Source: an uncultured Bacteroidales bacterium
GTDB lineage: Bacteria; Bacteroidota; Bacteroidia; Bacteroidales; Paludibacteraceae
Reading direction: 5' to 3'
Length of the DNA stretch: 34,457 nucleotides
NCBI GenBank assembly: GCA_902774995.1
Contig: CACYKR010000014.1
Coordinates: forward strand, 1-34,457
In this document: positions 3,122 through 31,941 of the stretch, piece after piece
Position numbering within the stretch: the stretch's first letter is position 1
How the letters are laid out: each line of letters opens with the position of its first letter
Notes under the pieces: model-generated
Told to the model about the DNA's origin: nothing
What the model saw: the letters and a program-made list of their open reading frames with translations, nothing else
Database searches by the model: none
Translations under genes and position numbers: made by a program

Positions 3122-3456
3122 TGGAGTCCACCAGACAACACAAGATCGCTCGTCTTATTCAAAAAGACATGAGCGACATTTTATTGCGATACGCGCGCAC
3201 GCTTCATGGAACATTGATTTCCGTGAGCGAGGTGCGCGTGTCGTCTGATCTCTCTATTGCGCATATCTATCTCTCTGTCTTTCCCCATGACAAGGTAGCT
3301 TCTACGATGGCGCTGATGGAAGAGAACACACACCGTTTTCGCGGTGAACTGGGTTCATTGGAGCGTCATCAACTGCGCATCATCCCTGAGATTATCTTCC
3401 ATCTGGACGAGACGATTGACCGTATGGAGCGCATTGATGAGTTGCTGAAACAATGA
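3121..3456 (+). CDS. rbfA: Ribosome-binding factor A
   Basis: A 111-residue RbfA, a single KH-like domain protein that binds the immature 30S subunit and helps 16S rRNA 5'-end maturation. Family features seen: the start STRQHKIARLIQKDMSDIL, the central TLISVSEVRVSSDLSIAHIYLSVF strands, and the end IPEIIFHLDETIDRMERIDELL. Length is normal. It is coupled to rpmH by a one-base overlap and overlaps the ABC permease gene by 4 bp (ATGA), an order seen in other Bacteroidales. Confidence 0.95.
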   Translation: MESTRQHKIARLIQKDMSDILLRYARTLHGTLISVSEVRVSSDLSIAHIYLSVFPHDKVASTMALMEENTHRFRGELGSLERHQLRIIPEIIFHLDETIDRMERIDELLKQ

Positions 3457-4664
3457 GCCTCGAATCCCATATCGCCTGGCGGTACCTTTTCTCTAAAAAA
3501 GGGCATAACGCCATCAACATCATTTCCGGAATCAGTGCTGCTGCGGTAGCTGTCGTGACGGCAGCTATGGTTTGCGTATTATCCGTAATGAACGGCTTTG
3601 GCGAGCTGGTAGAACATATGTTCTCGGAGTTTGACCCGGTGCTGCTTGTTGTACCGGCGGAAGGCCAGACCCTTCGTACCGACACACTGCCCATCGTTTC
3701 TCTGTTGGCGCACGAAGACATCAAATCTGTCTCTATGCAATTGGAGCAGACCGCCCTCGTCCGATATAAAGACCATCAGCTCCCCGCCCGGGTGATGGGT
3801 GTGGACTCTCTCTTTTCCGCCACAGCGCATATCGACTCTATCATCACGGATGGTTTCTACTCCGTCCATGACGGCGCATTCGAGAGGGCAGTGCTCGGCC
3901 GTGGTCTGGCGGCACAGATAGGCATCAACGCCCATTTCACCGGGGCGCTGCATCTCTATGCCCCCGAACGTACGGAACGGTTGAACATACTTCGTCCGGA
4001 TCAGTCGCTGCGCCACGAGCACGCGTTTATCGCAGGCACTTTTGCGGTGAACCAGATTGAGTATGACGATCGGTTAATGCTCGTCTCCCTGCCCCTTGCA
4101 CAGCGGTTATTCGGTTATGACGGGCACACCGCTACCGCTCTCCGTATTCAACCCAAACAAGGCGTCAAACTCTCAAATATCAAATATCAAATATCAAATC
4201 ACCTGGGGCCCGGATACAGGGTTTTGGACCGCTATGAGCAGCAGCACGACTTTTTCCGTATCCTGCGGATAGAGAAGCTGCTGACCTTCCTGCTGATGGT
4301 CTTCATCCTTCTGATTGCCAGTTTTAATATCATCGGCTCCCTCTCCATGCTCATCATAGACAAACGGGACGACATCCGCATTCTCTCCCATCTAGGTGCT
4401 GACGAGGCCGCCATCCGCCGAATATTTCTCTTGGAGGGGTGGTTCATTTCGGTGTTAGGAACGATAGCCGGGCTCGTAGTAGGGGTAGTGGTATGCTTGG
4501 GGCAGCAACACTACGGATGGCTCAAACTGGGTTCCGGCACTGATTACGTCATCTCCGCCTATCCCGTTCAGGTCCAGACGCCGGATATACTGTTAGTCGG
4601 TTTGATTGTCTTCGCCTTGGGATGGTTAGCCGCATGGTACCCCTGCAAAAAAATCATGATATGA
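3453..4664 (+). CDS. LolC/LolE-type ABC transporter permease (FtsX family)
   Basis: A 403-residue inner-membrane permease of the FtsX/MacB-PCD superfamily, closest to the lipoprotein-releasing LolC/E type. Seen: the N-terminal IAWRYLFSKKGHNAINIISGIS motif, a first membrane segment (about 22-45), a periplasmic domain of about 220 residues, then three C-terminal membrane segments (about 274-300, 325-350 and 375-395). The usual fold is therefore complete. Presumed job: extract lipoproteins from the inner membrane with an ATPase encoded elsewhere. Residues about 240-250 (LSNIKYQISN) are encoded by a heptameric repeat at 4171-4199, unlike the surrounding sequence. It is followed by a lipoprotein gene with a 4-bp overlap. 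Confidence 0.87.
   Translation: MSLESHIAWRYLFSKKGHNAINIISGISAAAVAVVTAAMVCVLSVMNGFGELVEHMFSEFDPVLLVVPAEGQTLRTDTLPIVSLLAHEDIKSVSMQLEQTALVRYKDHQLPARVMGVDSLFSATAHIDSIITDGFYSVHDGAFERAVLGRGLAAQIGINAHFTGALHLYAPERTERLNILRPDQSLRHEHAFIAGTFAVNQIEYDDRLMLVSLPLAQRLFGYDGHTATALRIQPKQGVKLSNIKYQISNHLGPGYRVLDRYEQQHDFFRILRIEKLLTFLLMVFILLIASFNIIGSLSMLIIDKRDDIRILSHLGADEAAIRRIFLLEGWFISVLGTIAGLVVGVVVCLGQQHYGWLKLGSGTDYVISAYPVQVQTPDILLVGLIVFALGWLAAWYPCKKIMI
4171..4199 (+). repeat. In-frame heptamer repeat (NTMTCAA family) inside ABC permease
   Basis: Four tandem 7-bp units, one CTCTCAA-like and three ATATCAA, in the periplasmic-domain coding region. They encode LSNIKYQISN without disturbing the frame. The same unit type recurs at 22880, 23634, 25750 and 31529. 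Confidence 0.8.
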
Positions 4665-6123: not shown

Positions 6124-6155
6124 CGGTATATCGGCATGTCGGAATATCGGAACAT
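6124..6155 (+). repeat. Octamer repeat CGGNAYRT spanning the DUF5686 start codon
   Basis: Four tandem 8-bp units: CGGTATAT, CGGCATGT, CGGAATAT and CGGAACAT. The start codon at 6136 is part of the second unit, so both the leader and the first residues (SEYRN) come from the repeat. Confidence 0.75.
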
Positions 6156-8553
6156 AATAGTTTTTATACTGTGTATTTTGCAGTTTTGCACTTTCCGTTG
6201 TCTCGCTACGGAGACGATTATCGTGGGTGAGGTCATGAATGAGACTACGGGCGAAGCTATTCCCAATGTAAATATTCATTTCCGGGGCACAAAAATCGGA
6301 ACCACCTCCGACGAGAACGGCAACTATGTTCTCCGCGTGGACATGCAGGACAAAGCACAACTTGTTTTCTCAGCCATAGGTTATTACTCACAGCGGTTTG
6401 AGATTACACCGGGCGTTATGGCCGGGCTGCAGGTAGCGATGAAAGAGCGCTCAACGATGCTGGCAGAAGTCGTTGTGGCGCCTAACGAGAATCCGGCACT
6501 GGAGATTCTTCGCCAAGTACGTTCCCATCGCTCTGAAAACGACCGCACCCTCCATCCCGAGTCAACCGCAGACCTCCGGCGCACCCAGACGCTCTATGTC
6601 TCGCATATTTCCAAACGTCATCTGCGCCGTGCCCTCTGGCGCAGCCTGCAATCAGGGATGATCTTACAGGAAGACTCTACATATATCATGCCTCTCTATC
6701 GCGAGACACAGACGTTCCGGTTCTCCGGCGAGGACATCACACCCGCCAATGACCGGCAGACACAGACTATAGTCCTCTCCGAGACGGATTACTCATCGCT
6801 CCTTGGCGGCGAAGGAAACCTCAATTTTTACGCTCCGTCCCTCTCCATCATGGGGCATGCTTTCCTATCCCCTCTTGCTGCCGGCGGAAATCTCTATTAC
6901 CGGTATTATCTGACAGAGAGCGCAACGAATGATTCAACAGCACAAAACAGCCGCGAAGTAACGATTGCTTTCCGCACCCGCAACCCCTTCTACGCCACTT
7001 TCAACGGCGAAATGGTTATTGACACCACCTCCTACGCTCTCCGTGCCATACAGGCTTATGTCCCCTCCGAAGTAGCGGTTAACTATGTGAACAACCTGCA
7101 CGTCTCTCAGACCCTTCTGCCTGACGGCACTATCGCAGAAGAACACCTCTCCGCCTTGCTTGATTTCGTAGTCAAGACCGACCGGGCTGGTACCATTTTC
7201 CCCACCCTCTTATTAACCACCTCACTTACCAATCCTACAGGCGAAGCCGGTCTTACAGCAGAGCGGTCTTATAGTCCGCCGGACGGTCCTGTAGGCGAAG
7301 CCGATCTTGCCTCCGACTCCGCTTTCGCGGCACTCGACAGTCTGCCTGTCATCCGCGTTGCCAAATGGTTTGCCACCATCGCCGCCACCGGCTATATACC
7401 TACAGGGACCTTTCTGGATATAGGTCATGTAGAAGAAATACTACAGGTCAACCATCATGAGGGCGTACATGTGGGACTGCCGTTCCGCACGAACGAGCGG
7501 TTCTCCAAGGTCGTATCATTGGAAGCCGCAGTGGGCTATGGAGTCAAGGACCGCCGGGCTAAAGGGCTCGGACGGATATCAATCAACCTGCCTGCACTTC
7601 ACCCCAACACTCTTCAACTGGAATACCGGGAAGGCTATGTATGGTCCGAAGTAGATGATTTCGACCGGCAGTTACGGGAAAACTCCATGGGGTTGGGTAA
7701 TTTCGATTTCACGGCTTATGCTTTTGAGGCGCTCCATCGTGACAACCGTTGCATCAACACCGCCATGTACCGCCGCCAGCTCCAGCTCCGTTGGTTTGCA
7801 GACTGGGGACAGTTCTCTTCCTCCATCGGCCCTGCTACCATACTGGAGACCCAGGCTTATATCCGTGCCGGACGGAATGACCTCTATGCACCCTACACCG
7901 TACACCGCACACCCTATTCATACCAGTCGCTCAGCTTGTTCAGCCGCCTCTCTTGGGGAGAACGCAAATACGACGGGTTCTTCTCACGCAAATATGCTTA
8001 TTCAAGCAGATACCCTGTTCTCTTCACCGGCCTCGAACTCGGTCACTGGAGCCATACCACCGGAGCAGGTTTGTATGCACACTTGCGCTTATTGCTTACC
8101 CACCACGCCCAACTCGGCATGGGAGGAACGCTCAACTATGCCTTCCAAGCGGGAGCAATCTTCGGAGAGGTGCCCGCCACCCTTCTCTGGCATGCTTCGG
8201 CAAACCAGGGATACGCTTACGACCCGTACCGTTTCACGCTCCTGCACGGCTACGAACTGATGGCGGATAAATACCTTGCGCTTCAGGCCGAGTGGAATGG
8301 CCAGGGTATCCTCTTCAACCTCATTCCCGGCGTCCGCTGGCTGCACCTGCGCGAACTGGTGGAGACCAAGATCGCCTACGGCTACCTCGCTGCCCCCCAC
8401 CGCACGCTCACCGGCAACGACGCTCATACCCTGTACACCGAAATAGGCGTAGGAATCGGAAATATCCTGCGCGTTTGCGACTTGTATTCGGTATGGAGTC
8501 TCTCGCCGCAGGTGCAATGGGCATTGCGGTTCCGCATCCACCTCGGCTTGTAG
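6136..8553 (+). CDS. DUF5686 outer-membrane protein with carboxypeptidase-regulatory-like domain
   Basis: An 805-residue exported protein. Residues 1-25 are a signal peptide. Residues 28-105 are a CarboxypepD_reg-like beta-sandwich (VGEVMNETTGEAIPNVNIHFRGTKIGTTSDENGNY), as found on TonB-linked and other surface proteins of Bacteroidota. The remainder matches the DUF5686 architecture: a linker region (EVVVAPNENPALEILRQVRSHRSEN) followed by a long beta-strand-rich region expected to form an outer-membrane barrel. It ends in an aromatic-flanked strand, QWALRFRIHLGL. The function is unknown. Residues about 367-392 are encoded by an inserted GC-rich repeat (7235-7311) related to those in radA and the FAD dehydrogenase. 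The start lies within an octamer repeat. It converges with murI. Confidence 0.85.
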   Translation: MSEYRNIIVFILCILQFCTFRCLATETIIVGEVMNETTGEAIPNVNIHFRGTKIGTTSDENGNYVLRVDMQDKAQLVFSAIGYYSQRFEITPGVMAGLQVAMKERSTMLAEVVVAPNENPALEILRQVRSHRSENDRTLHPESTADLRRTQTLYVSHISKRHLRRALWRSLQSGMILQEDSTYIMPLYRETQTFRFSGEDITPANDRQTQTIVLSETDYSSLLGGEGNLNFYAPSLSIMGHAFLSPLAAGGNLYYRYYLTESATNDSTAQNSREVTIAFRTRNPFYATFNGEMVIDTTSYALRAIQAYVPSEVAVNYVNNLHVSQTLLPDGTIAEEHLSALLDFVVKTDRAGTIFPTLLLTTSLTNPTGEAGLTAERSYSPPDGPVGEADLASDSAFAALDSLPVIRVAKWFATIAATGYIPTGTFLDIGHVEEILQVNHHEGVHVGLPFRTNERFSKVVSLEAAVGYGVKDRRAKGLGRISINLPALHPNTLQLEYREGYVWSEVDDFDRQLRENSMGLGNFDFTAYAFEALHRDNRCINTAMYRRQLQLRWFADWGQFSSSIGPATILETQAYIRAGRNDLYAPYTVHRTPYSYQSLSLFSRLSWGERKYDGFFSRKYAYSSRYPVLFTGLELGHWSHTTGAGLYAHLRLLLTHHAQLGMGGTLNYAFQAGAIFGEVPATLLWHASANQGYAYDPYRFTLLHGYELMADKYLALQAEWNGQGILFNLIPGVRWLHLRELVETKIAYGYLAAPHRTLTGNDAHTLYTEIGVGIGNILRVCDLYSVWSLSPQVQWALRFRIHLGL
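7235..7311 (+). repeat. In-frame approx. 16-bp repeat element inside DUF5686 gene
   Basis: Degenerate tandem units of the type GCGGTCTTACAGCGAA, here with spacings of 16-19 bp. They include GCCGGTCTTACAGCAGA and end in GGCGAAGCCGATCTTGCC. The reading frame stays open through it. It is the same family as 13839-13912 and 30993-31065. Confidence 0.8.
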
Positions 8554-13731: not shown

Positions 13732-15105
13732 ATGTCCAAGCCCTCCATTCAATATGTTTGTTCGTCCTGCGGCGCCAAGGCTCCGCAGATGCTTGGCCGC
13801 TGTCCCGTATGCGGAGAATGGGGTACTTATGAGGAGGAGGTCTTACAGCGAAGCGGTCTGTCAGCGAAGCGGTCTGTCAGCGCACGCGGTCTGTCAGGCG
13901 AAGCCGGTCTTCCTAAACGCCTCCAGGAAATCGTCGCCACCGAGGAGATGCGGCTCGACATGCGCAACGGGGAGTTCAACCGTGTATTAGGCGGCGGGTT
14001 AGTGCCGGGCAGCATCGTGCTACTCGGCGGCGAACCGGGAATCGGCAAATCGACATTAGCCCTCCAAGTGCTGATGCAGCAAGGTGAACGAAAGACCTTT
14101 TACGCTTCCGGAGAAGAATCCGTGCGCCAACTCAAACTGCGCGCAGAACGGCTTGCCGGAAATGCCGAGAACCTGTTCATTAGCTCCGAGACTTCACTGG
14201 AACGTATCTTGGAACAAGTGAAAGAACTGGAGCCGGAGATAGTGGTTATCGACTCCATACAGACCATCGGCACCGAAGCGGCGGAAGCTACCATCGGCAG
14301 TCTGACCCAGGTGCGCGAATGTGCCGCACGGATCATGGAGTTTGCCAAAACGAGGAATATACCCTTTATCATCATCGGCCATATCAACAAAGAGGGCTCC
14401 CTCGCAGGCCCGAAAGTGCTGGAGCATATCGTCGATACCGTTCTGCAGTTTGAGGGTGACCAGCAATATATGTACCGTATTCTAAGGGCGCAGAAGAACC
14501 GCTTCGGTTCCACCTCCGAGATAGGCATCTATGAGATGCGGCAGAACGGTCTGCGCGAGGTAACCAATCCTTCCGAGTTACTTCTATCAACAGCCCGCGA
14601 GGGTCTCTCCGGGATAGCAATCGCCGCAGCCGTAGAAGGCGTAAGGCCGTTTCTGATCGAGGTGCAGGCACTCGTCTCTTCCGCCGCGTACGGTACACCG
14701 CAGCGTTCATCCACCGGTTTTGACGGCAGACGGCTGAATATGCTGCTCGCTGTTCTGGAGAAACGCGTAGGTTTCAAGCTGCTACAAAAAGACGTATTCC
14801 TCAATATCGCCGGAGGCCTCCGGGTACAGGACCCTGCCATCGACCTAGCTGTCTTAGCCGCCGTGCTGAGCAGTAACATGGATATCGCGTTGGACGCAGG
14901 GACATGCCTCTGCGGCGAGGTGGGACTGGCAGGCGAAATCCGCCCCGTCAACCGTATCGAACAACGTATCTCCGAGGCGCAGAAATTAGGTTTTCGGCGT
15001 ATCCTCATTCCCGCCGAGCAAAAAGTGGAATCTTCCCGCTACTCCATAGAGGTGGTACCCGTAAAAAAGGTCACAGATGCCTTTAGATTACTCATAAAGG
15101 CCTAA
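13732..15105 (+). CDS. radA: DNA repair protein RadA
   Basis: A 457-residue RadA (Sms), a RecA-like helicase that extends strand-exchange intermediates in recombination. Domains: a C4 zinc finger (C10, C13, C24, C27), a RecA-type ATPase core with Walker A GEPGIGKS (100-107) and Walker B VVIDS (171-175), the RadA-specific KNRFGS motif (255-260), and a C-terminal Lon-protease-like domain. All are intact. Residues about 38-61, in the linker between zinc finger and ATPase, are encoded by a tandem repeat (13839-13912) absent from ordinary RadA proteins. It is preceded by a heptamer/hairpin leader, and no sigma-ABfr promoter is visible, so it may be read from upstream. Confidence 0.95.
   Translation: MSKPSIQYVCSSCGAKAPQMLGRCPVCGEWGTYEEEVLQRSGLSAKRSVSARGLSGEAGLPKRLQEIVATEEMRLDMRNGEFNRVLGGGLVPGSIVLLGGEPGIGKSTLALQVLMQQGERKTFYASGEESVRQLKLRAERLAGNAENLFISSETSLERILEQVKELEPEIVVIDSIQTIGTEAAEATIGSLTQVRECAARIMEFAKTRNIPFIIIGHINKEGSLAGPKVLEHIVDTVLQFEGDQQYMYRILRAQKNRFGSTSEIGIYEMRQNGLREVTNPSELLLSTAREGLSGIAIAAAVEGVRPFLIEVQALVSSAAYGTPQRSSTGFDGRRLNMLLAVLEKRVGFKLLQKDVFLNIAGGLRVQDPAIDLAVLAAVLSSNMDIALDAGTCLCGEVGLAGEIRPVNRIEQRISEAQKLGFRRILIPAEQKVESSRYSIEVVPVKKVTDAFRLLIKA
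13839..13912 (+). repeat. In-frame approx. 16-bp tandem repeat element inside radA
   Basis: Four units of 16-17 bp of the type GCGGTCTGTCAGCGAA, opening with GGTCTTACAGCGAA and closing with GGCGAAGCCGGTCTTCC. It is translated as LQRSGLSAKRSVSARGLS followed by GEAGL, placed between the zinc finger and ATPase domains. Confidence 0.88.
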
Positions 15106-19873: not shown

Positions 19874-20365
19874 ATGAAAAAGATTATTATCGCAATGATG
19901 CTGGCTCTGCCGATGCTTGCCGGCGCACAGAAATTCGGTCACATCAACACCCAGGAGCTCTTCGCGCAGATGCCGGAGGTGGCACAGATCAAACTCAAGA
20001 TGGATACCATCCAAGGTCAGTACGAAGCACAACTGGCTTCGATGAACGAGGAGATTCAGAAGAAAGCACAGGACTACCAGTCCCAAGAGGCTACCATGGC
20101 GGATGCCGTAAAACAAATCCGCCAACAAGAACTCCAGGAGATGCAGCAACGTATCCAGCTCTTCTACCAGACCGCAGAGCAGGACATCCAGAAGAAACAG
20201 CAAGAACTGCTGGCTCCCGTGCACGAGAAGATGTCCAAAGCCATCAAGGCCGTAGGTGAGCGCGAGGGTTATACCTATATCTTCGACTCCGCTGCCATGG
20301 TACATATCGGCGCAGATGCCACCGACGCCACCCCCGCTGTCAAGAAAGAATTGGGAATTAAATGA
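19874..20365 (+). CDS. OmpH/Skp-like periplasmic chaperone 2
   Basis: A 163-residue paralogue of the preceding chaperone: signal peptide MKKIIIAMMLALPMLAGAQ, beta segment KFGHINTQELFAQMPEV, a coiled-coil arm rich in Gln, Glu and Lys (about 38-125), and the closing KAVGEREGYTYIFDSAAMVHIGADATDATP. It is expected to act with the first copy and BamA in outer-membrane protein delivery. The 110 bp between the two copies hold an 11-bp repeat array inside an inverted repeat, but no promoter. The stop codon is embedded in the leader repeat of the next small ORF. Confidence 0.93.
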   Translation: MKKIIIAMMLALPMLAGAQKFGHINTQELFAQMPEVAQIKLKMDTIQGQYEAQLASMNEEIQKKAQDYQSQEATMADAVKQIRQQELQEMQQRIQLFYQTAEQDIQKKQQELLAPVHEKMSKAIKAVGEREGYTYIFDSAAMVHIGADATDATPAVKKELGIK

Positions 20366-20397
20366 CCAAATGGTAAATGACCAAATGGTAAATTTTT
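20360..20397 (+). repeat. 8+7-bp leader repeat directly before the mini-ORF
   Basis: AAATGACC, AAATGGT, AAATGACC, AAATGGT, then AAATTTTT immediately before ATG 20398. The same pattern precedes recA at 29260-29299. It begins inside the last codons of the upstream ompH gene. Confidence 0.85.
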
Positions 20398-20514
20398 ATG
20401 GCTGATGGTTATTTGGAGTCCCACTATGCCGAGTACGAGAAGAAAAAGGCAGAGTGGCTCAAGAAAAAGAAAAAATGGTCTTATAAAACTACGACCAAGA
20501 ATACTAATTCGTAA
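20398..20514 (+). CDS. Small 38-residue charged protein (probable gene)
   Basis: A short ORF starting MADGYLESHYAEYEKKKAEW, rich in lysine and with a helical, amphipathic look. It ends in ...TTTKNTNS, the last residues coming from the AATTCGT repeat. It is too short for standard gene calling. In support: it begins directly after a leader repeat identical in design to the one before recA, its first 30 residues are not repeat-derived, and I recall short Bacteroidales proteins beginning MAD-x-YLE of similar length. No function can be given. A chance ORF cannot be excluded. Confidence 0.5.
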   Translation: MADGYLESHYAEYEKKKAEWLKKKKKWSYKTTTKNTNS

Positions 20515-20554
20515 TTCGTAATTCGTAATTCGTAATTTTTAATTTTTAAAGTTT
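20506..20554 (+). repeat. Seven tandem heptamers ending at the MFS start codon
   Basis: Four copies of AATTCGT (20506-20533), two of AATTTTT (20534-20547) and AAAGTTT (20548-20554) are followed at once by ATG 20555. The array is the whole spacer between the mini-ORF stop and the transporter gene. No Shine-Dalgarno sequence is present. Confidence 0.88.
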
Positions 20555-21925
20555 ATGGTTAATAAACTTCAATCGACGCTTCGTGACAGTTCGTTAGCGC
20601 GGTGGACCGTATTGGTGCTTGTAGCATCGATGATGTTCTTCGCCTACATGTTCGTGGATATTCTCTCTCCGCTGGCTTCGTTGCTTAACGACACCCTCGG
20701 ATGGGACCAGGGTGTGTTCGGCACCTACGCTGCCGGCGAGTATTTGCTCAACGTCTTCGGGTTCCTCATCCTCGCTGGTATCATCCTTGATAAGATGGGC
20801 GTCCGCTTCACGGGTCTGCTCTCCGCTTCCCTCATGGTCATCGGTGCCGGTATCAAGTATTTCGGTATCACCTGGGCGGAGGCCAATACCGTGGAGTGGC
20901 TCAACGCCTGGTGGCCCTCCATGCCGGGTAGCGCCAAACTGGCGATGTTCGGTTTCATGATCTTCGGTTGCGGGTGCGAGATGGCAGGCACTACCGTCAG
21001 CAAGATCTTAGCCAAGTGGTTCAAAGGCAAAGAGATGGCGCTCGCCATGGGTCTTGAAATGGCAATCGCCCGACTGGGTGTGTTCGCCGCCATGTGGCTC
21101 TCGCCGATGTTCAGCGAGCGGTTTGCCGTGGACGGCGTGAACTCCGTGGCTGCACCGTTCATCTTCTCCGCCCTCCTGCTGGTAGTAGGACTGCTTAACT
21201 TCTTCGTCTTCACCATCATGGATACGAAGTTTGACGCACAACTTGTGGCTATCGGAGAGGCTACCGCGGAGAAGGACCCGGAGGACGAGTTCCATGTGTC
21301 CGACCTGGCACAGATATTCCGCTCGAAGATGTTCTGGATCGTAGCGCTCCTCTGCGTGCTCTACTACTCCGCTATCTTCCCCTTCCAGCGTTTTGCAACG
21401 AACTTCCTGGAAGAGACCCTCTCCATCTCCAATGCCGAGGCGGCAGGGCTCTTCAAATGGTTCCCGATCCTGGCAATGGTGCTGACACCGTTCCTCGGTG
21501 CGTTTATCGACTACAAAGGCAAGGGTGCTTCGATGATGCTCCTCGGGGCTGTCATCATGACGGCGTGCCACCTCGTGTTCGCCTTTGTCCTGCCGGCTTA
21601 TCCGTCCAAGACACTGGCGCTCGTCACGATTCTCATCCTCGGCGTGAGCTTCTCGCTTGTACCGGCGTCCATGTGGCCGTCCGTGCCGAAGATTATCGAC
21701 GAGAAAGTGCTGGGGTCGGCGTACTGCCTCATCTTCTGGGTGCAGAATATCGGTCTGTGCCTCGTGCCGCTGCTTATCGGCAAACTGCGCGTGGCTACCA
21801 ACGGATACCTTGTTCCGATGATCGTATTCGCCTCCTTCGGCGTACTGGCATTCCTCCTGAGCCTCGCTTTGAAGATCGAAGACAAAAAGAAAAACTATGG
21901 ACTGGAACTTCCTAATAAAAAATAA
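20555..21925 (+). CDS. Major facilitator superfamily transporter
   Basis: A 456-residue membrane protein with about twelve hydrophobic segments in the two-times-six MFS pattern and a cytoplasmic loop near residues 225-260 (KFDAQLVAIGEATAEKDPEDEFH). The loop between segments 2 and 3 carries an MFS-like signature (GIILDKMGVRFTGLLSA). The substrate is not deducible. The start ATG follows the heptamer array directly, and the next MVNKLQSTLRD is not repeat-derived. It overlaps murF by 29 bp, so the transporter and the peptidoglycan gene are probably co-translated. This does not by itself identify a cell-wall substrate. Confidence 0.88.
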   Translation: MVNKLQSTLRDSSLARWTVLVLVASMMFFAYMFVDILSPLASLLNDTLGWDQGVFGTYAAGEYLLNVFGFLILAGIILDKMGVRFTGLLSASLMVIGAGIKYFGITWAEANTVEWLNAWWPSMPGSAKLAMFGFMIFGCGCEMAGTTVSKILAKWFKGKEMALAMGLEMAIARLGVFAAMWLSPMFSERFAVDGVNSVAAPFIFSALLLVVGLLNFFVFTIMDTKFDAQLVAIGEATAEKDPEDEFHVSDLAQIFRSKMFWIVALLCVLYYSAIFPFQRFATNFLEETLSISNAEAAGLFKWFPILAMVLTPFLGAFIDYKGKGASMMLLGAVIMTACHLVFAFVLPAYPSKTLALVTILILGVSFSLVPASMWPSVPKIIDEKVLGSAYCLIFWVQNIGLCLVPLLIGKLRVATNGYLVPMIVFASFGVLAFLLSLALKIEDKKKNYGLELPNKK

Positions 21926-23180
21926 AGATTCCATTACCGTCACAACAGACAGCCGGAAGGTCACTCCCGGCTCTGTTTTTGTGGCGCTCAAAGGAGAGCA
22001 TTTTGACGGGAATGACTATGTTGAGCAGGCAAAGAAAAATGGCGCAGCATATATCATCTCCGGAGAAAACGCTTTAGCTGAGTTACAAGACCTCGCACGC
22101 GCGTGGAGACGCAAGTTTAGAATTCCGGTTATTGCCATTACCGGCACCAACGGAAAGACCACTACCAAGGAACTGACGGCTGCTGTGTTGAGCAAGAAGT
22201 ATAACGTATGCTATACCCAAGGCAATCTCAACAACCAACTCGGCGTACCCCTCACCTTATTATCTATCACGCGTGCGCATGAGATAGCAATTATCGAGAT
22301 GGGGGCTTCCCACCCGGGAGATATCAAAGAACTGGTGGAAATTGCGGAGCCTACCGACGCGCTGATTACAAATGTAGGCAAAGCGCACTTACAGGGCTTC
22401 GGGTCCTTCGAAGGAGTACAGCAAACGAAAGGTGAGTTATACGATTGGATTATTGCGCATGGAGGAACAATCTTCTACAATGCAGAGAACCCGTATCTTT
22501 GCAAAATGTTGAAGAAACGTCTGCCCAAAGGACGCAAGACCATCCGTAACAAATTCAACAAGATTCATTGGTACAACGAGGTCTACTCTCCCGGTTCCGA
22601 CAAAGAAATAGGATTGTTCCGCTATCGTTCATCGGATTGTCCGATTAAGGTGTCAGAGACGCATCTGGTAGGTGGTTATAACCAGGAGAACATTGCCGCT
22701 GCATTTGCCATCGGCATGTGTATGGTTTGCACTTTCCCTGAGAGCCGCGAGGCTATATGTGAGTATGTGCCGTCCAACAACCGGTCCCAGCTCATGCAGA
22801 CGGAGAAGAACACCGTCATCGTGGATGCCTATAACGCCAACCCCACTTCCATGCAGGCGGCTATCGAGGCTTTTGACCGATATCAAATGTCAGATATCCA
22901 ATCTCAAATGCCGAAGGCCTATATCTTGGGAGCTATGCGCGAACTGGGCGAATACAGCCACCGCGAGCACCAGAATATCGTCAACATGCTGCTGGAACGC
23001 AAGGCGGAGAAGGTGTTCCTCGTCGGTCCGGAGTACAGGGAGACCACTGCGCCATACCCCGTTTATGAAAATATCGAAACACTGTACGACTACTTGAGCC
23101 GCGAACCGCTCGCAGGATACCGTATCTTGCTCAAAGGCAGCCGTTCGAACCAAATGGAAAAGATACTTCCTTTATTATGA
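21897..23180 (+). CDS. murF: UDP-N-acetylmuramoyl-tripeptide-D-alanyl-D-alanine ligase
   Basis: A 427-residue Mur ligase that adds D-Ala-D-Ala to the UDP-MurNAc tripeptide in the cytoplasm. Seen: the N-terminal substrate domain (TTDSRKVTPGSVFVALKGEHFDG), ATP-binding GTNGKTTTKE (83-92), AIIEMGASHPGDIKEL, ALITNVGKAHLQGFGS, and the C-terminal domain with VDAYNANPTSMQAAIEAF. Residues after AFDRYQ (SDIQSQMPK) are encoded by degenerate heptamers at 22880-22907, just before the conserved AYILGAMRELGEYSHREHQ. Overlaps: 29 bp with the transporter and 4 bp with the next gene. Confidence 0.95.
   Translation: MDWNFLIKNKDSITVTTDSRKVTPGSVFVALKGEHFDGNDYVEQAKKNGAAYIISGENALAELQDLARAWRRKFRIPVIAITGTNGKTTTKELTAAVLSKKYNVCYTQGNLNNQLGVPLTLLSITRAHEIAIIEMGASHPGDIKELVEIAEPTDALITNVGKAHLQGFGSFEGVQQTKGELYDWIIAHGGTIFYNAENPYLCKMLKKRLPKGRKTIRNKFNKIHWYNEVYSPGSDKEIGLFRYRSSDCPIKVSETHLVGGYNQENIAAAFAIGMCMVCTFPESREAICEYVPSNNRSQLMQTEKNTVIVDAYNANPTSMQAAIEAFDRYQMSDIQSQMPKAYILGAMRELGEYSHREHQNIVNMLLERKAEKVFLVGPEYRETTAPYPVYENIETLYDYLSREPLAGYRILLKGSRSNQMEKILPLL
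22880..22907 (+). repeat. Degenerate heptamer repeat inside murF
   Basis: Four 7-bp units in phase: ATATCAA, ATGTCAG, ATATCCA and ATCTCAA. They encode the short loop YQMSDIQSQ before a conserved C-terminal motif. The array is more decayed than those at 4171 and 25750. Confidence 0.65.
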
Positions 23181-24067
23181 CAGAGAAAAAGAAAATACAG
23201 AAATCGAATACCTGGATCCTTGTCACCGCACTGGTACTCATCATCTGCGGTCTGGTCGTCTGGAACCTCACCCAGCGAAGCGAGTTAAACGAAATGGTGG
23301 AGCAGATGACCATCGAGAAAGAGGAGTTGCAGGAAGAATACGAGGACCTGGCTATTCAGTTTGACGGTTTCCAGCAGATGGATATCCGCAACGACAGCCT
23401 CCAGGACCTCCTCTCCCGCGAGCAGCAACGCGTGCAGGACCTGCTGGAGGAACTGCGTCAGACCAAAGCCTCCAACGCCCGCCGTATAGCGGAGTTGAAA
23501 AAAGAACTGGCTACCGTCCGGATGGTGATGAAAGACTACGTTCGCCAGATCGATTCGCTCAACGCCACCAACGCACGTCTCACGGAGGAGAACCAAATCG
23601 TCCGTCGGGAGAACCAGCAGGTCAAGGAGCAAAACTCTCAACTCTCAACGCTCAACTCTCAACTCTCGGAGACTGTCACGCGTGCCTCCATGCTGGAGAT
23701 CACCGCTTGTGAGATCACTCCACTCAACAAAAACGACCACAAGACCCGCATGACGAGCCATATACGCAAACTCCAATTCGACTTCACCATCGCCAAGAAC
23801 ATCACTTGCCAGCCGGGTATGAAAGACTTGTACGTACGCGTGATGGATCCGGAGGGTATGCTTTTGGGCGAGAAGGAAGGACAACTCTTCCCCTTCGAGA
23901 GCGGCGAGATTCCCTATTCGCTCACCCAGGCCTTCGAATATACCGGAGAGGCCTATGCGGGCTCATGCTTCTGCCCCGTCGAGGAGGTACAGAAAGGCTT
24001 CTATACGGTGGATTTCTTCTGCGAGGGAAACCTCATCGGTTCGTTCCCCTTCCAGCTCAAGAAATGA
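23177..24067 (+). CDS. Single-pass membrane protein with long coiled coil, unknown function
   Basis: A 296-residue protein. After a short positively charged N terminus there is one membrane segment (about 13-31). A long Glu/Gln/Lys/Leu-rich coiled coil follows (about 34-170), then a C-terminal globular domain of about 125 residues (ITACEITPLNKNDHKTRMTSHIRKLQFDFTI; closing GSFPFQLKK). Topology suggests that the coiled coil and the globular domain lie in the periplasm. Coiled-coil residues QNSQLSTLNSQLS are encoded by a heptamer DNA array (23634-23668), which happens to suit coiled-coil propensity. It overlaps murF by 4 bp, so a cell-wall-related scaffold is possible but unproven. Confidence 0.78.
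   Translation: MTEKKKIQKSNTWILVTALVLIICGLVVWNLTQRSELNEMVEQMTIEKEELQEEYEDLAIQFDGFQQMDIRNDSLQDLLSREQQRVQDLLEELRQTKASNARRIAELKKELATVRMVMKDYVRQIDSLNATNARLTEENQIVRRENQQVKEQNSQLSTLNSQLSETVTRASMLEITACEITPLNKNDHKTRMTSHIRKLQFDFTIAKNITCQPGMKDLYVRVMDPEGMLLGEKEGQLFPFESGEIPYSLTQAFEYTGEAYAGSCFCPVEEVQKGFYTVDFFCEGNLIGSFPFQLKK
23634..23668 (+). repeat. Five-unit heptamer repeat inside coiled-coil gene
   Basis: Units ACTCTCA, ACTCTCA, ACGCTCA, ACTCTCA and ACTCTCG, each 7 bp. They are translated in frame as NSQLSTLNSQLS. Same family as 31529-31563. Confidence 0.85.
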
Positions 24068-29251: not shown

Positions 29252-29259
29252 CACTCGAT

Positions 29260-29299
29260 AAATGAATAAATGGTAAATGACTAAATTGTAAATAGTTTT
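29260..29299 (+). repeat. 8+7-bp leader repeat before recA
   Basis: AAATGAAT, AAATGGT, AAATGACT and AAATTGT, then AAATAGTTTT directly before ATG 29300. It is nearly the same as the leader of the mini-ORF at 20360-20397, including the TTTTATGG junction. Confidence 0.85.
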
Positions 29300-30340
29300 A
29301 TGGCAGAGAAACTTACGCCGTCGGCAGAGAAGCTGAAAGCTTTGCAGGCCGCGATGGCAAAGATTGACAAAGAATATGGCAAGGGTGCCATCATGAAATT
29401 GGGAGACGACAAGGTGGAGAATGTAGCCGTTATTCCGACCGGCAGTCTCGGTCTCAACTACGCGCTGGGCGTAGGCGGTTATCCTCGCGGACGTATCATC
29501 GAGATATACGGTCCGGAGTCGTCCGGTAAGACCACACTGGCTATCCATGCCATGGCGGAGGTACAGAAAGCGGGTGGCATTGCGGCTATCATCGACGCCG
29601 AGCATGCTTTCGACCGTTTCTATGCAGAGAAATTAGGAGTCAACACAGATGAGTTGCTTATCGCCCAGCCGGACAGCGGAGAGCAGGGACTCGATATAGC
29701 GGACGAACTCATCCGTTCCGCTGCGGTAGATCTCGTAGTCATCGACTCAGTGGCGGCTCTGACGCCGAAAGCGGAGATTGCAGGGGACATGGGAGATAAC
29801 AAAGTCGGTCTGCAGGCGCGTCTGATGTCACAGGCGTTGCGGAAGATGACCGCTTCGGTCAACAAGACCGGTACTACCGTCATCTTCATCAACCAGCTGC
29901 GTGAGAAGATCGGTGTGATGTTCGGAAACCCGGAGACCACTACAGGAGGTAACGCACTGAAATTCTATGCTTCCGTACGTCTGGATATCCGTAAGACAGG
30001 TCAGATCAAAGACGGCGACCAAGTCAAAGGAAACCAGGTACGCGTGAAGGTGGTGAAGAACAAAGTGGCGCCTCCCTTCAAGAAGGCGGAGTTTGACCTC
30101 ATGTTCAACGAAGGTATTTCCCGCATCGGTGAGATTCTCGATTTCGCAGTGGCAACAGAGGTCATCAAGAAGAGCGGTTCGTTCTTCTCTTATGGCGACA
30201 CCAAATTAGGTCAGGGACGTGACAACGTGAAAGCGGTACTGGCGGACAATCCGGACTTATGCGACGAGATAGAGGCGAAGATCTCCGAGAAGATCAAAGA
30301 AATGGGTCTGGAAGCCGTACTCGACAAAATCAGCAGATAA
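29300..30340 (+). CDS. recA: Recombinase RecA
   Basis: A 346-residue RecA, the ATP-dependent strand-exchange protein. Seen: Walker [10 protein letters not shown] (71-79), the [10 protein letters not shown] segment, [15 protein letters not shown], the DNA-binding loop region around [46 protein letters not shown], and the basic C-terminal domain. Length is normal. Its leader is an AT-rich 8+7-bp repeat with no Shine-Dalgarno. Other recombination genes in the window are recO, radA and xerD. Confidence 0.98.
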
Positions 30341-30366: not shown

Positions 30367-31941
30367 GTGGAGACCAGACAATACATACTTTCTCCGCGCG
30401 AGGCGTACGTAGCCGCGCAGCAATGGAGAGTAGTCAAACGGAGTGTAGATGCACGGCAACGGGAGTTGCACGTGCATCTAACTGTTTTAGTTGACGAGAA
30501 AGGTAATCCCATCGAAAAAAACTCTCAACTCCCTTACCAACCACCTGTCTATCAGGACGTACACTCCGCAGCCCGCTCCGCTATCATTATAGGAGCCGGT
30601 CCCGCAGGGCTCTTTGCCGCACTGACACTGATAGAACAGGGTATCAAACCGGTCATCTACGAGCGCGGCAAAGAGGTCAGCGCCCGCAAACGCGACATAG
30701 CACTGCTCAACAGGAACGAAGGACTCAACCCCGAGTCCAACTACTGTTTCGGCGAAGGAGGAGCCGGTACGTTCTCCGACGGCAAACTCTTCTCGCGGTC
30801 CAAGAAGCGGGGAAACATGCAGCGGGTGATGGAGATCTTCCATTATTTCGGGGCACCGGACACCGTGCTCTACGAGGCACACGCGCATATCGGCAGCGAC
30901 AAACTGCCCGGTATCATCAAAAAAATGCGTGAGTGCATCATCGCCCACGGCGGAGAGATACACTTTGAGACTTGCATAAAAAGTCTCAAAAGTCTAACAG
31001 CCGAAGGCGGTCTTACAGCAAAGCGGTCTTACAGCGAAGCGGTCCTACAGCGTAGCGGTCTGTCGTTGGCAACGCCAATCATATTGGCCATCGGCCATTC
31101 GGCGCATGACACCTACAGGATGTTAGCCGCCGAAGGCGTGGCCCTGGAGACCAAGGGCTTTGCGATGGGTGTGCGGATCGAACACCCCCAAGCCCTCATC
31201 AACAGGCTGATGTATCATCTGACAAAACCCCACCTAACCTCCCCACTTATCAAATATGTCGGCAACGCCTCCTACAGCCTCGTGACGCAGGTGGAGGGAC
31301 GGGGCGTCTATTCGTTCTGTATGTGTCCCGGAGGACATATCGTCCCGGCGGGCAGCAGCGAAGGGACATGTGTGGTGAACGGCATGTCTGCCAGCCATCG
31401 TAACTCCCCTTTCGCCAACAGCGGCATGGTGGTCCAGATCAACCCCGAGGACATCCCCGGCAACGACCCCTTACGCGGCCTGGAATACCAAGAGGCCCTT
31501 GAACACCTCGCCTTTGAGCAAGTTCACAACTCTCAATTCTCAACTTTCAATTCTCAAATCTCTGCCGCTCCCGCGCAGCGGATGCGGGATTTCGTAGAGG
31601 GAAAGCCCTCCAAAGACCTGCCGCCGTGCAGTTATCTGCCGGGCATTGTACCCAGCCGCCTGGACCAATGGCTGCCGCCTCACATAGGCAAACGCCTGCA
31701 GCAGGGATTTCGGGATTTTGACAGGAAGTACCCCGGTTTCCTCACCAACGATGCAGTCATCGTAGGCGTAGAGAGCCGCAGCAGCAGTGCCGTCCGTATC
31801 ACACGGGATCCCGACACGCTGCAATCGGTTTCCACGCCGGGCTTATACCCCTGCGGTGAAGGGGCGGGCTACGCCGGAGGCATCACCTCCTCCGCCCTAG
31901 ACGGCATCAACGCCGCGTTGAAGATTGCCGCTTTGGCATGA
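30367..31941 (+). CDS. FAD-dependent dehydrogenase (COG2509-like)
   Basis: A 524-residue flavoprotein. A 70-residue N-terminal domain (RQYILSPREAYVAAQQWRVVKR) precedes a Rossmann FAD site (GAGPAG at 76-81, ER 99-100). The family motif NYCFGEGGAGTFSDGKLFSRSKKRG, the LAIGHSAHDTYRM region and a C-terminal PCGEGAGYAGGITSSALDG FAD loop follow. Physiological substrate unknown. The start is GTG 30367, the only possible start after an in-frame stop at 30349. An unusual AGGAGG (30341-30346) lies 20 nt upstream, rather far for a Shine-Dalgarno. Repeat-derived peptides occur at residues about 52-55, 209-233, 287-293 and 388-399, so this gene is the most repeat-laden of the window. Confidence 0.88.
   Translation: METRQYILSPREAYVAAQQWRVVKRSVDARQRELHVHLTVLVDEKGNPIEKNSQLPYQPPVYQDVHSAARSAIIIGAGPAGLFAALTLIEQGIKPVIYERGKEVSARKRDIALLNRNEGLNPESNYCFGEGGAGTFSDGKLFSRSKKRGNMQRVMEIFHYFGAPDTVLYEAHAHIGSDKLPGIIKKMRECIIAHGGEIHFETCIKSLKSLTAEGGLTAKRSYSEAVLQRSGLSLATPIILAIGHSAHDTYRMLAAEGVALETKGFAMGVRIEHPQALINRLMYHLTKPHLTSPLIKYVGNASYSLVTQVEGRGVYSFCMCPGGHIVPAGSSEGTCVVNGMSASHRNSPFANSGMVVQINPEDIPGNDPLRGLEYQEALEHLAFEQVHNSQFSTFNSQISAAPAQRMRDFVEGKPSKDLPPCSYLPGIVPSRLDQWLPPHIGKRLQQGFRDFDRKYPGFLTNDAVIVGVESRSSSAVRITRDPDTLQSVSTPGLYPCGEGAGYAGGITSSALDGINAALKIAALA
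30993..31065 (+). repeat. In-frame approx. 16-bp tandem repeat element inside FAD dehydrogenase
   Basis: Units GCGGTCTTACAGCAAA, GCGGTCTTACAGCGAA and GCGGTCCTACAGCGTA, then GCGGTCTGTCG: three exact 16-bp periods. It is translated as GGLTAKRSYSEAVLQRSGLS between two conserved strands of the FAD domain. This is the clearest copy of the family. Confidence 0.9.
31226..31246 (+). repeat. Fragment of C-rich repeat inside FAD dehydrogenase
   Basis: ACCCCACCTAACCTCCCCAC matches the intergenic C-rich repeat at 24383 except for two missing C residues. It encodes KPHLTSP. Confidence 0.55.
31529..31563 (+). repeat. Five-unit heptamer repeat inside FAD dehydrogenase
   Basis: Units ACTCTCA, ATTCTCA, ACTTTCA, ATTCTCA and AATCTCT. 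They are translated as NSQFSTFNSQIS, just before the conserved APAQRMRDFVEGK. Confidence 0.85.

Follow-up and report, generated by a model that had tools for sequence, protein, structure and literature searches.

Repeat arrays in the window

The window, i.e. the whole stretch of 34,457 nt analysed here, is one contig (C14) of a genome of 2.18 Mb in 114 contigs with a completeness of 87%. Three of its genes, for an FAD-dehydrogenase, RadA and a DUF5686 protein, carry arrays in which heptamers (rulers) alternate with mini-hairpins. Plain heptamers occur at three further places.

7232..7310, + strand: array in the DUF5686 gene (6136-8553); hairpins of 9, 7, 11 and 9 nt separated by 7-nt rulers
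13840..13913, + strand: array in radA (13732-15105), in the linker past the zinc ribbon; hairpins of 7, 7, 8 and 9 nt separated by 7-nt rulers
30992..31064, + strand: array in the FAD-dehydrogenase gene (30367-31941); rulers in order GTCTAAC, GTCTTAC, GTCTTAC, GTCCTAC, GTCTGTC; hairpins GCCGAAGGC (31000-31008), GCAAAGC (31018-31024), GCGAAGC (31034-31040) and GCGTAGC (31050-31056)
4173..4199, + strand: plain heptamers TCAAATA without hairpins, of the same repeat class, in the ORF 3453-4664
23633..23667, + strand: plain heptamers AACTCTC, in the ORF 23177-24067
31518..31562, + strand: plain heptamers of the TTCTCAA type that encode NSQFSTFNSQIS, in a second variable loop of the FAD-dehydrogenase

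An initial annotation of this DNA had described an exact 16-bp period in the FAD-dehydrogenase gene and related copies in radA and the DUF5686 gene. Both were borne out: GCGGTCTTACAGCGAA-type units recur exactly every 16 nt, at 31007, 31023 and 31039, and the copies in the other two genes are the arrays listed above. The encoded peptide and the rotation of frames by the 16-nt unit are also as described. Allowing up to three mismatches, the unit has seven matches in the window against 0.32 expected, and none of 100 shuffles reached seven.

All three arrays follow one grammar: a 7-nt ruler (RTCYNNC), an A, a mini-hairpin, a G and the next ruler. The window holds 12 hairpins in total, and all nine internal spacers are exactly 7 nt long despite hairpins of 7, 8, 9 or 11 nt. 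The 16-nt period is the sum of the ruler and a 9-nt block and arises only where the hairpin has 7 nt; in the DUF5686 gene, the period ranges from 16 to 20. The 16-bp unit is not featureless: it combines a heptamer ruler with a hairpin, and the two arms of the hairpin change in concert. The predicted DNA folding energy of the three arrays was not better than that of shuffled sequences (z from -1.57 to 1.38).

The window also contains a 15-nt tandem repeat (TAAATGACCAAATGG) at 20359-20393 and 29259-29293, just upstream of the gene at 20555 and of a recA-like gene at 29300. Copies of it occur in the nearest relative found (G136) as well. The transporter gene region 20475-21892 barely aligns with this relative while both of its flanks do, and judging from the alignment it is a probable gene replacement.

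Distribution of the repeat family

The distribution was mapped with a pattern of 22 bases and up to three mismatches, with the reversed pattern as control. Matches were found in 144 of 178 genomes of the genus, at 0 to 153 per genome, and the control gave 0 or 1. Genus genomes with one or two matches may owe them to chance. In a family sample of 300 genomes, 92 of 120 genus members matched and 13 of 180 members of other genera; twelve of these 13 had one or two matches and one (G186) had six. Across the phylum (395 genomes sampled), matches occurred in 61 of 394 genomes besides the window's own, with at most three in each (control: up to two). Hence, the family is widespread in the genus and scarcely found beyond it, and the other sampled Bacteroidota are mostly at chance level.

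The initial annotation had proposed a search of the genome and its relatives, and further arrays were indeed found. Within the window's genome, one gene on another contig (C41) has two more arrays and C38 has one partial array. A shorter pattern gave 87 and 49 matches versus 58 and 40 for the reversed control, a small excess. Of the two outcomes that had been named as counting against the family, the same peptide in distant genera or no more copies in the genome, neither arose.

A scan of named genomes yielded at least 118 stretches with the pattern. Among the 118 matches listed, 99 come from gut or rumen assemblies with the name Bacteroidales, Bacteroidia or Paludibacteraceae, 14 come from other Bacteroidota (Saprospiraceae, Kordia, Flavobacterium, Flavobacteriales and one unplaced), one is named Lachnospiraceae and four were taken as chance. 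Of the last four, Pseudomonas, Microbacterium and a Proteobacteria assembly have a single match each; Phyllobacterium (L173) was judged by its name and has no strict array. The arrays of the other Bacteroidota follow the same grammar, with spacers of 7 nt in 36 of 53 cases and of 14 nt in five of 53. In the named strain Flavobacterium lotistagni CYK-4, the array is visible by eye.

The contig named Lachnospiraceae (UBA9736; L166) has the repeat inside a DUF2520 gene, and this bin is possibly wrongly assigned. No exact match to the repeat was found in viral contigs, so carriage by phages is not supported. Among the matches listed from the open-licence literature (titles and abstract openings), no description of this repeat family was found.

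Spacing of the hairpins

Spacers were counted in a main set of 99 gut Bacteroidales loci, chosen by taxon name rather than by locus-by-locus confirmation of genus membership. A spacer is the distance between successive A-hairpin-G blocks, which were located by their pairing and by the following GGTC or GATC. Of 296 spacers of up to 45 nt, 228 measured 7 nt and 39 measured 14 nt. The pattern used to fetch the loci itself holds one 7-nt ruler and one GCGAAGC hairpin, and it imposes 58 of the 228 7-nt spacers and 72 of the 192 7-nt hairpins. Among the 238 spacers not imposed, 170 were of 7 nt, 39 of 14 nt and one of 21 nt. Lengths of 6, 8, 9, 11, 15 and 20 nt occurred once each, four spacers were of 23 nt and 18 were longer. 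The 14-nt spacers are two heptamers (e.g. GTCTAAC-GTCCAAC), and the 23-nt spacers fit 7+9+7 with an unrecognised hairpin. The hairpin block itself ranged from 9 to 19 nt in the 99 loci; longer hairpins came with the same ruler.

Some figures stem from an older set of 107 loci, which includes eight strays (L165, L166, L173, L177, L185, L186, L193 and L199). These are the stop-codon and open-frame counts, the flank profiles with the core dinucleotides, the host peptides, the tandem-period counts, the heptamer-neighbour test, the gaps between any triloop hairpins, the dapA spacers and the AATAAAC-type rulers. The dapA loci, fetched by protein, had spacers of 7 nt in six of 14 cases, 14 nt in three and 21 nt in one. 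They also revealed a second ruler type, the 7-nt AATAAAC or ACTAAAC between hairpins such as GCCGAAGGC and GCTCCGAAGGAGC. An AATAAAC-type ruler between two hairpins was found in 13 cases; we judge four of them to be real (all in dapA: L302, L303, L307 and L320) and the others to be chance matches in AT-rich sequence.

Less specific counts gave a more mixed picture. The gaps between any GNA or ANA triloop hairpins with stems of at least three pairs measured 7 nt in 17 cases, 5 nt in 13 and 8 nt in eight. Exact tandem repeats in the 796 kb of the older set had periods of 7, 14, 21 and 28 in 33, 18, 13 and four cases, with 0 in the shuffle. Other periods were also above the shuffle (15 cases of period 24, 12 of period 11 and 10 of period 8), and the 69 cases of period 16 reflect the selection of the loci for the repeat. 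A plain heptamer of one pattern adjoined or lay in seven of 122 arrays versus 104 of 6100 random segments, a weak result beside the spacer test.

Stems and loops

The 99 loci contain 287 units with 71 distinct hairpins, and 192 of the 287 units have a 7-nt hairpin (2-bp stem, 3-nt loop). The mean stem of the 71 distinct hairpins was 2.70 bp, compared with 1.63 bp when arms were swapped among hairpins of equal length (a maximum of 2.00 in 1000 swaps). In the 120 7-nt hairpins that were not imposed, 86 stems were G-C over C-G, 33 were other Watson-Crick combinations (18 G-C/T-A, 12 A-T/C-G, three A-T/T-A), one had a mismatch and none had a G-T pair. GNA loops were present in 97 of these 120 (GAA 47, GCA 25, GTA 18, GGA 7). 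The oligonucleotide d(GCGAAGC) forms a highly stable hairpin.

Hairpins of 8–16 nt comprised 299 Watson-Crick pairs, five G-T pairs and 15 other non-pairing cells, assuming loops of 3 or 4 nt. Single-arm states do exist in this class. One-sided states are rare, which suggests that a single event often alters the two arms together, as in template switching.

Arrays in genes

ORFs were picked greedily by length, without a gene finder. Of 117 strict arrays, 73 lay in sense orientation in an ORF, six in antisense, 35 were intergenic and three were at an ORF edge. This mapping agrees with the earlier view of a dispersed family that sits in frame in unrelated conserved genes. The repeat itself is not free of stops. 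In the older set, a core with TAA, TAG or TGA occurs in 23 of 75 arrays within ORFs and in 18 of 37 between them, and in genes the stops fall in frames that are not read. In the same set, 37 of the 75 arrays within ORFs and five of the 37 intergenic ones had three open frames on the sense strand, and two of the 75 had them on the antisense strand. Each 16-nt unit shifts the frame, so that three successive antisense units usually run into a stop. In genes, the coding strand is nearly always the one poor in stops, and the bias towards one orientation follows from the stops on the opposite strand.

Of 61 host proteins, 53 were scanned with Pfam; the rest were four copies of radA, a duplicate UvrB and three proteins of less than 180 residues. 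In 23 of the 53 (hand count), the array was strictly within one Pfam-matched stretch. These hosts include RNB exonucleases (two), SMC_N, the UPF0004 part of a MiaB-like protein, QueA, DapA and LpxB. Others are the NUDIX part of a MutY-like protein, a Mur ligase, glutamate racemase and M16 (two) and M20 (two) peptidases. Four scanned hosts (L120, L126, L128 and L163) gave no Pfam match.

Some arrays lie at the limits of genes or domains. The single ORF L105:5893-7110 (+) contains a PcrB/GGGP synthase domain (36-238) and a TadA-like deaminase (262-406) joined exactly by a hairpin array (residues 242-265), an apparent gene fusion through the repeat. In L055, an in-frame array joins, by eye, the end of an RND-type transporter to the apparent lipoprotein start of the next gene. 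In two LptE genes (L156:3806-4372 and L179:3884-4444), it stands right past the start codon, in the basic part of the signal peptide.

Variable loops in orthologues

The initial annotation had asked whether the segments are clean insertions. The orthologue alignments showed no clean insertion into a conserved stretch: the same loops of sister species contain other heptamer arrays or palindromes. At the array site of the FAD-dehydrogenase, the hairpin repeat was present in five of the 30 best orthologues, counting that of the window itself. The remaining ones had plain heptamers (GGAAAAT, AGTCGAA, AGAGGTT, CATCAGC, CTTTCAA), a palindrome that encodes LTSPQGE (CCTCCCCACAAGGGGAGG) or some other sequence. 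The second loop of this protein and the radA linker showed the same pattern, with hairpin arrays or palindromes in other species at the second loop. Compared with G136 (89% alignment identity), ~100 bp of the FAD-dehydrogenase gene at 30969-31071 could not be aligned, and the flanking blocks were 96% and 92% identical. Further parts of the window elsewhere were also unaligned.

In DapA, the site lies between EASGN and SGDD. Read by eye, the 30 best orthologues had GTC-type hairpin repeats in 11 cases, the TAAAC ruler with hairpins in five, plain heptamers in 10, other palindromes in two and almost nothing in two. All 30 were in frame and free of stops across the site. A stop was flagged inside the dapA match of G162 and G133 (both among the 30), with a stop-free translation of the site stretch. 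Stops were likewise flagged inside the FAD-dehydrogenase match in G080 and the radA match in G156, and the dapA match of G112 was in two pieces in different frames. Aligned to 1o5k, whose fold we take to be a barrel, the site falls after a helix and before a barrel strand. The segments are loops in which repeats are exchanged rather than single clean insertions.

Other repeat types were seen in the same loops of FAD-dehydrogenase, radA and dapA orthologues. A second, unrelated coding palindrome family (CCTCCCC-loop-GGGGAGG, peptide LTSPQGE/SPKGKGE) occurs e.g. in L205, L210, L217, L222, L249 and L319, and a third (CCCCCTCAATCCCCCC...GGGGGG, peptide LNPPIEGG) in L218 and L223. In L204, L205, L213 and L230, heptamer arrays are broken by longer inserts with pieces in common (e.g. 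CCATAC and AGATAAGAA); these may be another decorated heptamer family.

Comparison with known repeats

The closest known kinds are the heptanucleotide repeats and the CGTC REPs/RPEs. Long heptanucleotide simple-sequence repeats of bacteria are reported to have been treated by Mrazek 2007 (via PMC4679880 and PMC4692102); cyanobacterial and Xanthomonas heptamers and TAACTGA repeats belong to this kind. Like these, the family has a 7-nt quantum, is tandem and is patchy among species. Its 14-nt spacers are two plain heptamers, the period is 7 or 14 nt in 170 and 39 of the 238 non-imposed spacers, and plain heptamers occur in the same loops. The difference is that most heptamers here are split by hairpin blocks of 9–19 nt, which leave the count undisturbed. 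Moreover, the Xanthomonas and TAACTGA repeats are mainly intergenic, whereas the arrays here are mostly in genes.

Rickettsia palindromic elements and CGTC REPs are short and palindromic, lie in frame in unrelated proteins including uvrB and have no known transposase (PMC3733652). The CGTC repeats include Rickettsia and a Bacteroidetes species (PMC3733652). They have a stem of 8–9 bp, a loop of 4–5 nt and a CGTC tag, form head-to-head dimers and are rarely clustered (PMC3733652). In the present family, stems are mostly 2–4 bp and loops mostly 3 nt, the tandems are head-to-tail and the hairpin sequence varies between neighbours. With any base allowed before GTC, the last hairpin of 115 arrays was followed by GGTC in 102, GATC in eight, TGTC in two, AGTC in two and CGTC in one. 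The family shares the in-frame position in unrelated genes with the CGTC repeats and lacks both their tag and their stem size. The comparison with Rickettsia made in the initial annotation is apt as an analogy and does not extend to membership.

GTAG REPs with RAYT (PMC3733652) are similar in that they are small hairpins, sometimes intragenic and clustered, but the family here has no GTAG tag, and no RAYT association was found. The BrickBuilt MITE minisatellite of Porphyromonas gingivalis (PMC4596501) is likewise a short tandem repeat dispersed in a Bacteroidales genome. Unlike the family here, its unit is 23 nt long with inverted-repeat ends, and it is described as always intergenic (PMC4596501); by eye, the flank profiles of our arrays had no inverted ends of the MITE type. 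PARCELs (PMC2996958) are tandem coding repeats with dyad symmetry. The protein motif that they encode has 25 residues and occurs in ORFs without a known function (PMC2996958), whereas here the peptide is not kept and the hosts are known enzymes. By eye, the conserved amphipathic motif of 25 residues is absent from the host peptides, which use different frames. Template-switch mutations (PMC8794818) resemble the hairpins in that both arms change at once and stems are perfected. They are described for RNA genes (PMC8794818), and their application to coding repeats would be an extension.

Two candidate enzymes were rejected. The RAYT/IS200 transposase (RAYT/Y1_Tnp, PF01797) was above the cut-off in 48 of 178 genomes, most of these matches being weak and partial, and no link to the repeat was found. 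Loss of the hairpin nuclease SbcD (TIGR00619) does not discriminate, as other genera are often without SbcD too: it was above the cut-off in 46 of 160 family genomes, one of which (G101) is in the genus, with at least 16 genus members among the genomes listed.

Proposed mechanism and alternatives

We give a probability of about 0.5 to the following reading. The lineage-specific tandem DNA repeats, [7-nt ruler RTCYNNC]+[A-mini-hairpin-G], would slip in 7-nt steps, have their hairpin arms corrected by a template and pass the filter of the reading frame. The data themselves show the 7-nt quantum of the ruler, the paired stem changes, the filter by reading frame and the replacement of repeats in fixed loops. 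Replication slippage in 7-nt steps would let the repeats grow and shrink, as proposed for plain heptanucleotide repeats. The hairpin would be folded out during slippage, and hence would not be counted in the step. According to the proposal of Mrazek 2007, as reported in PMC4679880, heptamers dominate since 7 nt may be the contact length of the polymerase. Hairpins that leave the ruler undisturbed fit this idea. Hairpin-templated correction would hold the arms matched, and template switching is described as making and repairing hairpin stems (PMC8794818). Selection would require of the insert only an open frame, a length divisible by three and a position in a loop that tolerates it. Slippage accounts for local growth and not for the arrival of units in unrelated genes. 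For this step, the least certain one, our guess is that the polymerase may switch at short GTC microhomologies. Several points speak against the slippage account: the lack of a folding-energy excess, the other tandem periods above the shuffle and the single-arm states in hairpins of 8–16 nt. Moreover, none of the arrays was observed to vary within a species.

The main rival for the dispersal step is an enzyme acting in trans. The arrays would then belong to a non-autonomous mobile element in the manner of REPs/RPEs, moved by an enzyme that recognises hairpins, and would have grown by repeated insertions or local duplications. The arrays are dispersed through the genomes, and core dinucleotides seem common within some of them (GT in CALZRN, TA in CACWNR; by eye in 13 genomes, the others being mixed). 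Conservation of the flanks stops at about RTCYNNCA (left) and GGTC(T) (right), although detection imposes much of this and it argues weakly for defined ends. Against this, PF01797 is absent from the five genomes richest in the repeat (G161, G123, G095, G084 and G040), and the array ends are, by eye, not inverted repeats. We consider a mobile element unlikely, at about half the weight of the slippage reading. The initial annotation had left the choice between an element and templated duplication; the paired stem changes favour a templated process, and no link to RAYT was found for the element. Exchange of alleles between species by homologous recombination could drive the turnover of loops, with the repeats themselves being old. 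The unaligned ~100 bp between highly similar flanks and the recurrence of the same insert types in several species would suit it, but the 7-nt quantum, the paired stem changes and the many unrelated host genes would remain unexplained, which makes it improbable as the driver.

The hairpins might also act in RNA, through regulation, mRNA structure or ribosome bypassing that leaves the insert untranslated. Paired changes that preserve stems and the shared orientation of in-gene arrays would agree with this. However, 7-nt hairpins have no G-T pairs although RNA would allow them, 35 of 117 arrays are intergenic and the orientation is already explained by stops on the opposite strand. With mobile bypassing elements (byps), the insert is untranslated and the frame need not be kept. 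Keeping it would be needless under bypassing, and the alignments place all 30 best dapA orthologues in frame across the site. A role in RNA is thus slightly less probable to us than recombination. We consider selection for the encoded peptide itself, as a linker or basic segment of some use, very unlikely. Inserts do lie in linkers and near some signal-peptide starts (LptE), but the frame rotates with each unit, a changed stem means a changed peptide and the corresponding site of sister species encodes unrelated peptides. An origin by chance or as an assembly artefact of metagenomes is hardly credible. The genomes are mostly metagenome assemblies, but the reversed control gave 0 or 1 match per genome, and the repeat occurs in many independent projects and in the strain CYK-4.

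Implications

Unrelated important genes carry these repeats as extra protein loops, and conserved proteins thus differ between species at these places. Such loops will mislead annotation, trees and structure prediction in gut Bacteroidales. The arrays are also a natural test of what a slippage step counts, as a hairpin block adds 9–19 nt and the ruler is unchanged. If the slippage reading is true, it ties the preference for heptamers among long bacterial microsatellites to the entry of hairpin repeats into coding genes without a known transposase. It would also provide a route to species-specific loops in core enzymes such as DapA, RNase R-like proteins, UvrB, RadA, glutamate racemase and LpxB. 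In its widest form, a 'hairpin-blind heptamer ruler', the idea is more tentative, and we put it somewhat below even odds: a 7-nt process at the DNA level may rewrite surface loops of housekeeping proteins throughout the genus, and species-specific segments would then arise by mutation and not by adaptation.
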